The translations under genes and the position numbers were made by a program. A stretch of 64,000 nt of DNA from Peromyscus leucopus (lineage: Eukaryota > Chordata > Mammalia > Rodentia > Cricetidae): the NCBI RefSeq assembly GCF_004664715.2, contig NC_051069.1:78204647-78268646 (forward strand), in the 5' to 3' direction. Below are positions 3,865 to 36,234 of the stretch, piece by piece. Under the pieces are notes generated by a model, which had not been told where the DNA came from, ran no database searches, and worked only from the letters and a program-made list of their open reading frames with translations. Each line of letters begins with the position of its first letter. Positions within the stretch are counted from its first letter, which is position 1.

Positions 3865-3948
3865 GGCTTATGCATTACTGGGAATAGTACCCAGGGCTTC
3901 CCTCATGCAAGACAAATGTTCTACTACTGAGCTACATTACTGGCCTCT
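3865..3948 (-). mobile_element. ID/B4-type tRNA-derived SINE fragment
   Basis: On the minus strand it reads 'atgtagctcagtagtagaac' and later 'ccctgggtactattccc', the A-box and B-box halves of the ID-type SINE head. It is diverged, with no clear tail. Confidence 0.65.
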
Positions 3949-33475: not shown

Positions 33476-33544
33476 GGTGTACTCAGATTGGCCTCTCGGC
33501 ATGTCCTTGAGGCATTTTCTTAATTGCTAAGTGATGTGAGAGGG

Positions 33545-33905
33545 CCTAGCCCACTATGGTGGACTGAAAGAAAATGGCTCCCAAAGGGAGTGGTACTATT
33601 AGGAGGTATGGCTTTGCTGGAGTGGATGTGACATTGTTAGAGGAAGTGTGTCACTGTGGAGGCAGGGCTTTGAGGTCTCATATATGCTCAGGCCACACCC
33701 AGTGAGACAGTTCACTGCTTTCACCTGCAAGCTGTAAAACCCTCCACTACCTCTCTAGCACTATGTCTGCCTCCATGCTGCCATGTCTCACTCTATTGAT
33801 AGTGGACAGAACCTCTGAACTGCAAACACCCAGTTAAATGTTTTTCTTTGTAAGAGTTGCTGTGGTCATGGTGTCTCTTTATAGCAATAGAAACCCTAAC
33901 TAAGA
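33545..33905 (+). mobile_element. Rodent MaLR-like LTR
   Basis: 'gaggaagtgtgtcactgtgg', 'gcagggctttgaggtctc', 'acctctgaactgcaaac' and the terminal 'atagaaaccctaactaagac' define a common rodent LTR. The AATAAA equivalent has decayed to 'gttaaatg'. Copies recur at 37282 and 40006. Confidence 0.7.
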
Positions 33906-34155
33906 CACACATTGTGAGTGGTACCATATTTGGGCAGGTTCCCTGAGCTGTATAAGAAAGGTAGCTGAGCAAGCTAGGAGGAGCAGGACCTTAAGCAGCA
34001 TTCTTCTGTGGTTCCTGCTTCACTTCCTGCCTCTCAGTTTCCGCCCCAAATTCCTTTGATGATGAATTATAAAGTATGAAATGAAATAAACCACCCCTAA
34101 GTTGCTTTTGGTCAGGAATTTATCACAGCAACAGAAAGCAAACTGCAACAAACAG
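33906..34155 (+). mobile_element. Second rodent LTR-like fragment in tandem
   Basis: 'gagctgtataagaaagg', 'ttccttgcctctc'-type words, 'gaaataaaccacccctaag' and 'ttatcacagcaacagaaagc' form the 3' part of a related LTR in the same orientation as its left neighbour. Confidence 0.55.
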
Positions 34156-35284: not shown

Positions 35285-35350
35285 CATATGTTAGTTACTT
35301 TTTCTGCTGCAGTGACAAATCACCTGACAAAATCAACTTAAGGAAGGTGT

Positions 35351-35655
35351 TGTGGGAAATTTGTTTGCGTTGTTATTCCAAGACTGCCAATGGAGTTGGA
35401 CCTTGGTTCGAAGGACAGAGTCCACATTCAGCTGACTGGAGTGGACCATAGAGTTTTCTGTCCAACTTAGAGGAAGATAGAGGGACACACAGGAGGAATG
35501 AGTGGGGCTCAGAAAGATGTACAGGCATTTTTGATGAGGGAAGGGGGAGAAGAGAACAGTTTCCTCCATTACTCCATGGGTCTTTCAGGTTTATTTCCTA
35601 ATATCTGACTCCCGAGATTTATTTTTTAATAAAACAATAAAAGAAGACACAATAT
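35351..35655 (+). mobile_element. Class II-type LTR inserted in an older repeat
   Basis: Starts TGTGGGAAAT and contains 'ccaagactgccaatgg', 'ccatgggtctttcagg', 'ctgactcccgag' and 'aataaaacaataaaag' near its end. It is directly followed by a primer-binding-site-like sequence at 35657. No retroviral internal region follows; after 76 bases of tRNA-like sequence the host repeat resumes. Confidence 0.7.
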
Positions 35656-35656
35656 C

Positions 35657-35732
35657 TGGCACACAACATGGGGCCCAAACCCTCGATCCTGAGATTATGA
35701 CTCTTGTACTCTTCTGACTGAGTAAGACAGAC
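35657..35732 (-). pseudogene. tRNA-Lys-like sequence, antisense, fused to the LTR
   Basis: Bases 35657-35674 read TGGCACACAACATGGGGC, a diverged form of the 18-base primer binding site for tRNA-Lys(1,2). The match does not stop there. The next 58 bases continue as the reverse complement of tRNA-Lys(CTT) up to its 5' end. My hand alignment gives 57 of 76 positions identical without a gap. The anticodon position reads ATG where AAG is expected in antisense. Because it starts with the complement of CCA and abuts an LTR, it looks like a reverse transcript of the primer tRNA. It is not a working tRNA gene. Confidence 0.75.
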
Positions 35733-36234
35733 TTATTTTGAAGTCACAGTTGGAGGATGCCATAATTCATGATGGAGAAAGCACCACATGGTGGCAAGAA
35801 TATGAAGAGGCCATTGGTCATATTGTAACAACAGTCATGAAGCAGAGATGTACTGATACTCAGCTTACTTTTTCCTTTTTATTAATCTTGAATTCCAAAC
35901 CATAGAATGGTGCTCCTCACAGTTAGGGTAGGTCTTTCCACCTCAATTCATCTAATCCAGAAACTCTTTCTCAGACATGCCCAAACTTTCACTTCCAAGG
36001 TGATTCTAGCTCCTATCAAGTTGATAATCAGCATTAATCATCACACCACTGGTTCAGGTTTGATGTGATAATAAAAGAAAAGAAAGTGCAGTCTCATAGC
36101 TAACTTCTTCCACAAGAGTAACAGTGCAGATACCAGGATGGGGAATGCAGCTGGTTGCTGGCTGCTGTCAGTATATTTAGTTAAAAGAGTGTGGTTGGGC
36201 TTCTGAGGACACTGGCCTGGTGTGACAATGCAGT

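Follow-up and report, generated by a model that had tools for sequence, protein, structure and literature searches.

Long terminal repeats joined to antisense copies of the tRNA-Lys(CTT) primer in the genome of Peromyscus leucopus

The stop at the methylated base m1A58 of the tRNA primer is a textbook step of retroviral replication that has been studied mainly in vitro and with HIV-1. Events in which the tRNA is retained are known from retroviral circles and integrations, namely from cloned circles with tRNA sequence between the LTRs and from aberrant avian retrovirus integrations carrying the primer tRNA.

In one study, m1A58 is given as the normal stop of plus-strand strong-stop synthesis, and with HIV-1 in vitro the full copy (P1) is formed when the tRNA is unmodified, transfer being limited to products that stop at 58, 55 or 54 (PMC13191261). 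Reverse transcriptases misincorporate at m1A, according to another (PMC9021294). For genomic LTR-tRNA insertions, no description was found among the listed titles and abstract openings of the open-licence PMC literature.

An LTR followed by antisense tRNA-Lys(CTT) in the window

The window, by which we mean the whole analysed stretch of 64,000 nucleotides of P. leucopus DNA, contains an LTR that is unlike an ordinary solo LTR: a primer binding site (PBS) and a tRNA body, not host DNA, follow its end. The features of the locus are as follows.

35348..35654, + strand: LTR (family A), TGTTGTG...CACAATA, both ends read in the sequence; 39 other scored genomic copies
35655..35656, + strand: spacer TC, 2 nt from LTR end to PBS, read in the sequence; LTR-B loci likewise have CCAATA+TC+TGG
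35657..35674, + strand: PBS for tRNA-Lys(CTT), 15/18, from the tRNA alignment
35675..35675, + strand: base opposite tRNA A58 (m1A58), C for T; substituted in 34/40 loci (window counted) and in 33/39
35675..35732, + strand: antisense tRNA-Lys(CTT) positions 58 to 1, 42/58; last ~8 nt perhaps host sequence or a decayed target duplication
35291..35347, + strand: left flank, an older host interspersed repeat (the target), from repeat comparison; left limit approximate
35733..35812, + strand: right flank, the same host repeat resuming, TTATTTTG...TCACAGTT; right limit is the end of the compared piece
33900..34143, - strand: uninterrupted paralogue of the target repeat at the insertion point (empty-site paralogue), from repeat comparison

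A first-pass annotation, made from the letters of the window, had aligned 35657-35732 with antisense tRNA-Lys(CTT), 57 of 76 positions being identical without a gap, and this match was reproduced. For the stretch 3' of the PBS (nt 19-76), with its 42 matches in 58 positions, 200 shuffles gave a mean of 14.4 and a maximum of 23; chance alignment is thereby rejected, and the proviso of the annotation that the match might be no better than shuffled sequence falls away. The runner-up position for the whole 76 nt inside the 64-kb window reached 35 matches, and at 35657 other tRNAs scored lower (tRNA-Lys(TTT) 49, tRNA-Phe 41). The query is identical (73/73) to a tRNA-Lys(CTT) gene of the same genome. 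Among the 19 mismatches of the window copy are 12 transitions, 5 assigned to CpG decay and one at the m1A58 position (35675, T to C). Neither the window as a whole nor the site gave a tRNA match in Rfam, whose tRNA model misses the decayed copy, and the PBS with its extension had no match in the viral and prokaryote contig collections, where one viral contig matched the bare 18-nt PBS. Antisense tRNA-Ala matches, probably derived from SINEs, were also seen in the window at 3867 (46/75) and 36858 (40/75).

The LTR had been annotated from 35351 with the tRNA copy directly after it; the LTR is present, but it starts at 35348, the base at which the alignment begins in 31 of 39 genomic relatives, and the 2-nt TC precedes the PBS. 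Its end CACAATA is a 6/7 inverted repeat of TGTTGTG, the terminal CA reading TA in the window copy, and an AATAAA-rich stretch lies close to the 3' end (~35627-35642). A genome search with this LTR gave 351 first-look candidates; 40 were scored, and the 39 places besides the window were fetched. No tRNA body follows the LTR in any of these 39 copies (7 to 23 of 58 vs 42), and seven of them have a PBS-like match (11-15/18) at the exact place. Six of the seven run into one shared, ordinary and unrelated leader; the window is therefore not an ordinary leader aligning by chance, an alternative raised by the annotation, and the body match in all seven PBS-keeping relatives is 16-23/58. The window LTR is a multicopy ERV LTR with a tRNA-Lys(CTT) primer, the PBS being found just downstream in relatives.

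For the target repeat 33 matches were listed, two of them the window itself, and 12 copies were fetched. Most uninterrupted copies resemble AACTTAAGGAAGG(A..)TTTATTTTGGCTCACAGTT, hence few or no host bases were lost at the window. A further copy of the repeat at 33543-34143 appears by eye to be broken by a different repeat. The annotation had the copy reach the tRNA 5' end, where the host repeat resumes. The 57/76 match is indeed continuous, but its final ~8 nt (AGACAGAC) can be assigned about equally well to the tRNA end or to decayed host or duplication sequence, so that the 3' end of the copy is uncertain by ~8 nt; an AGAC ending is also present in the tRNA copies of L090 and L101. No target duplication is found immediately at the tRNA end of the window, a plausible place (GGAAGG vs GACAGA) giving 3/6, and the best score, 4/6, lies at a distant offset. 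Two readings of the locus fit this: the whole tRNA was copied and no duplication is visible, or copying went as far as about tRNA nt 9 and the duplication has decayed. It is an old, simple member of the class of LTR-tRNA fusions described below, without clear target duplication; with a single locus from an old LTR family, the path has to be read from the class.

LTR-tRNA fusions elsewhere in the genome and the base opposite m1A58

With 35640-35732 as query, 40 loci (window counted) were scored among 74 candidates and all 40 were read; we call them the first set. The tRNA copy follows an LTR of family B (TGTAGTGGG...CCAATA+TC, ~300-350 bp, a few 5'-incomplete) in 33 of the 40; L081 follows a distant relative of LTR-B, of LTR-B no more than the final 31 nt are left in L085, and other sequence precedes the copy in L049 (the window), L079, L080, L082 and L097. 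When the host tRNA-Lys(CTT) gene served as query (second set), 40 of 1249 first-look candidates were scored and their 40-nt flanks fetched. They comprise one true tRNA gene (L136, 73/73, without CCA) and 39 antisense copies on LTR-like ends, all beginning with the complement of CCA (38 TGG, 1 CGG). The ends are LTR-B or close variants in 27 cases, ACAAA (family D) in five and of the ACATC/ATATC type (family E) in five, with L137 and L145 in addition. There is no overlap between the 39 first-set loci besides the window and the 39 fused loci of the second set.

Seven upstream regions, three of family E, three of family D and L182 (the region of L137), were read further. The E loci have ~420 nt in common, 79-86% identical and ending at the PBS; this stretch opens with TG in two of the three, the third having TATGG there. 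With the D-type sequence of L080, L176 shares ~346 nt, L178 ~200 nt and L181 only the last 44 nt. The L182 region matched none of the other regions read. Fusions are carried by no fewer than four LTR families (A, B, D, E), with a fifth end as a candidate.

A third sample was drawn by LTR-B similarity alone (42 matches, 3243 candidates, 40 scored, 20 ends fetched). Thirteen ends reach the spacer; six of these have a PBS of 18/18 with a tRNA extension (33-57/58; two of the six are also in the second set), two an ordinary leader and five neither. Seven ends stop at the LTR end, and none has a PBS there (5-11/18 nearby). Two query-based samples and a small LTR-based one from a single genome are no census, and candidate counts are not counts of confirmed loci; the pairs L072/L113, L137/L145, L153/L155 and L161/L162, which share downstream sequence, are perhaps not independent. 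Similar sequence just after the tRNA copy was seen in L146/L172 (GGCGGAATGGCGGAGATGG) and in L167/L174 (TGCGGCGGTGAGA.CGCCGA), looking as if one acceptor had been used repeatedly. In ordinary LTR-B leaders (L107, L114, L080) the PBS is imperfect, lacking one base relative to the tRNA complement, and this might favour failed strand transfer. All four fused copies given to a tRNA gene finder (L139, L148, L149, L152) were called tRNA-Lys genes with encoded CCA, a warning that such programs count fused copies as genes.

Rodents have tRNA-Lys-derived SINEs and tailless tRNA retropseudogenes, any of which could have landed beside an LTR by chance. To this coincidence we assign a negligible probability: in the window and most sister loci only a 2-nt spacer separates the complement of CCA from the LTR end, and the substitution opposite m1A58 would be left unexplained. 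An origin as SINE or retropseudogene, inserted independently of an LTR, is refuted by the recurrence at the same LTR-CCA junction.

The base opposite A58, position 19 of the copy, is expected to be T. In the first set it is A in 24, C in 10 and T in 6 of the 40 loci, window counted, and in the second set A in 28, C in 5 and T in 6 of 39; the correct base thus stands at only 12 of 79 loci. At all other positions 4-76 of the second set 15 of 2808 cells are substituted, and in the first set, from which L083 was omitted for this count (39 loci), 44 of 1365 cells differ at non-CpG positions between 20 and 60. The chance of 34/40 at one site is P ~6e-45. Position 5, with G-to-A in 30/39 loci of the first set vs 1/39 of the second, differs between the sets and therefore probably reflects ascertainment, the first set having been found with the window sequence, together with CpG decay; the signal at position 19 occurs in the two sets alike. 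An unfused tRNA copy with altered position 58 was not found among the 40 scored matches to the tRNA gene (of 1249 candidates). The change at position 19 is the error expected of a reverse transcriptase copying through m1A, and the error at position 58 indicates a methylated base that was bypassed. The C at 35675 in the window fits such a bypass; as one site in one old locus, it proves little by itself.

An LTR tree was built from 33 first-set loci, the other seven of the 40 having no full LTR-B; on it the position-19 state changes 9 times vs 9.5 in shuffles, i.e. it is not clustered and therefore behaves as a separate event in each insertion. This independence from the tree bears on whether the copies descend in the ordinary way from a master element whose leader contained the 76-nt tRNA complement. 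Such inheritance would suit the many near-perfect LTR-B copies, the one junction of L072 and L113 and the three other pairs with common downstream sequence, yet the sequence after the tRNA differs at most loci, the L072 junction was seen at two places among 40 scored, each of them on contig C4, and the fusions extend over at least four LTR families. We regard an inherited extended PBS as very improbable.

Sequences joined to the tRNA copy

A viral body and a second, direct LTR follow the tRNA copy in seven first-set loci (L053, L065, L072, L077, L078, L089, L090), of which L090 has an additional rearrangement ahead of its second LTR; L076 has a partial direct LTR. An inverted LTR, whole or in part, is present in 11 loci (L057, L064, L067, L073, L084, L085, L087, L088, L092, L096, L099), and cellular RNA pieces or host DNA are further sequences seen downstream of the copy. 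The second LTR is closest to the first LTR of its own locus (among 33) in 7/8 loci of the direct class and in only 3/10 of the inverted class, which means that inverted parts need not stem from the same molecule.

When second ends were surveyed at the 40 first-set loci, the LTR start could not be recognised at 8, no candidate was found at 11, and 21 offered one or more. A target duplication of 5/6 or 6/6 was found in 15 of the 21, that of L067 within a simple repeat, at a chance rate of 0.46% per comparison, ten of the 21 loci offering two or three candidates. The other six (L070, L071, L083, L087, L088, L096) scored 4/6 or less, L088 being 6/6 by eye, and the duplication of L083 is ~44 nt long instead of 6; therefore not all ends were joined in one way. 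Among the 16 loci without a second LTR (window counted), five have a duplication of at least 5/6 near the tRNA end (permutation p 0.0125): in L094, L098 and L101 exactly at the tRNA end, in L070 4 nt inside and in L075 in a simple repeat. For the class, integration is supported by this fixed-length 6-bp target duplication, the window locus itself reaching 4/6 at best.

The three loci in which an immediate duplication of 5/6-6/6 follows LTR-tRNA, and the body-less structure of the window, would also be explained if the primer tRNA had been left on the right end of the provirus and copied beyond the 3' LTR, later LTR-LTR recombination leaving LTR and tRNA. This course has the read-through step in common with the explanation that we prefer, but it cannot yield LTR-tRNA-body-LTR (7 loci) or LTR-tRNA-inverted LTR (11 loci). 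The order LTR-body-LTR-tRNA was seen nowhere, which is hardly a test, upstream regions having been read at a minority of loci. On balance, we consider retention of the primer unlikely.

The start of the viral body, measured on the L077 piece as nt before the 3' LTR, lies at ~487 in L078, 484 in L091, ~486 in L065 (counted after its tRNA copy ends), 477 in L089, 444 in L161/L162, 433 in L053 and 700 in L072; for L077 the join is at 1356 nt. L077 and L089 have truncated tRNA copies. Most of the joins differ, but the bodies of L065, L078 and L091 begin no more than a few nt from a single viral position that directly follows TCTGTCAG, and the joins of L089, L161/L162 and L053 lie within ~55 nt of it. 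TCTGTCAG looks like a 3' splice site; with the joins clustering after it, some minus strands may therefore come from spliced or chimeric (gene-virus) RNAs and not from broken ones. L072 has an extra antisense viral-body piece that is common only to L113 among the 40 scored places.

Cellular sequence sits between the tRNA copy and the viral body in L078 and L091. The 392-nt filler of L078 (L078:2106-2499) is in sense orientation and codes for BANF1 (Pfam SAM_BAF; PDB match with E 5.5e-42). Its other matches in the genome are one uninterrupted copy (90%) and three places where its pieces lie apart (best 93%, on C1), and its source is therefore a spliced mRNA or the transcript of a processed copy. 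The filler of L091 (L091:5408-5991) is GC-rich and has a PP1-inhibitor reading frame, presumably PPP1R14B-like. L099 continues with 46 nt of antisense tRNA-Asp (score 60 vs a maximum of 22 in 300 shuffles) and then an inverted LTR, L092 with an antisense SINE that opens with poly(T) and that we take to be B2-like, and L085 with 27 T and then an inverted LTR, as if the acceptor had been the poly(A) tail of the viral RNA itself. In L080 the tRNA copy of another LTR is joined into an LTR-B.

The first-pass annotation had foreseen a distinct class of insertion, and this class exists in the genome from which the window comes, most of its members belonging to other LTR families. Its suggestion that reverse transcriptase read through the modified base gains support from a feature that it had not anticipated, the misincorporation signature at m1A58. 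Its remark that no retroviral body is present holds for the window, where LTR-tRNA adjoins host DNA, but many members of the class carry further sequence after the tRNA copy. For an integrated LTR-tRNA product the sister loci provide target duplications, and the window none that is clear.

Proposed mechanism and comparison with known systems

Primer read-through to the tRNA 5' end, often with template jumping, and subsequent integration is the best model and, in our judgement, very probably correct. Read-through, run-off and a jump to another 3' end make up the simplest course that the loci could have in common. The reverse transcriptase of an ERV would make plus-strand strong-stop DNA from U3-R-U5 and then from the tRNA primer still on the minus strand. 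After 18 nt, synthesis would pass m1A58 instead of halting there, in most cases misincorporating a base, and would run off at or near the tRNA 5' end. The resulting LTR-tRNA copy would be unable to make the normal second-strand transfer, and in many sister loci its run-off end may have jumped onto another nucleic-acid end. One putative target is a minus strand without the viral 5' part, in some cases extended by an mRNA copy; another is plus-strand LTR DNA, giving an inverted LTR; poly(A) tails or other tRNAs may have served as well. Integration of the product would follow, in many cases duplicating 6 bp of the target; in the window, host DNA would have been joined straight to the LTR-tRNA DNA. 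To the observed structure, m1A58 signature, recurrence in several LTR families and target duplications at sister loci, this model adds a step order, an end-to-end jump and a joining of the right end of the window that we infer. Sense mRNA pieces beside the tRNA would be expected if minus-strand synthesis had run along an mRNA part to its 5' end, and poly(T) and antisense tRNA-Asp if the jump goes to an RNA 3' end.

A wider reading, for and against which we see even odds, is that read-through and end-to-end jump amount to a PBS-independent second-strand transfer rescuing transcripts without a viral 5' end, chimeric ones included, that this gave rise to a large germline class from several LTR families in this rodent, and that each insertion records the choice of reverse transcriptase opposite a methylated tRNA base. 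On the best model, the genome preserves many natural failures of the m1A58 stop together with their fates, i.e. template jumping, capture of cellular RNA and integration, and with them a record of miscoding opposite m1A in which A is commoner than C or T. LTR-tRNA fusion would also be a source of internally deleted and mRNA-carrying proviruses.

Like the primer tRNA in cloned circles and aberrant avian integrations, the tRNA sequence is here carried into viral DNA at the U5 end; those are laboratory products, whereas the present loci form a class of natural germline insertions, with an error specific to a modified base and with RNAs that were captured. As in the HIV-1 P1 product, the copy passes the 18-nt PBS to the tRNA 5' end and is joined to the LTR, but that product is made on unmodified tRNA and does not transfer (PMC13191261), while the copies described here are integrated in the germline and bear an error at position 58. 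The primer over-extension sequence of lentiviruses and spumaviruses is likewise tRNA complement beyond 18 nt next to the PBS; it is genome-encoded and helps the transfer of products reaching Psi55 (PMC13191261), whereas in P. leucopus up to all 58 remaining nt are present and, on the evidence of the loci, newly copied. With the LTR-mediated retrocopies made by template switching (PMC5408686), the BANF1 piece of L078 has in common that a cellular mRNA lies inside an LTR element; here, the plus-strand side joins via a complete tRNA copy and not via PBS and leader.
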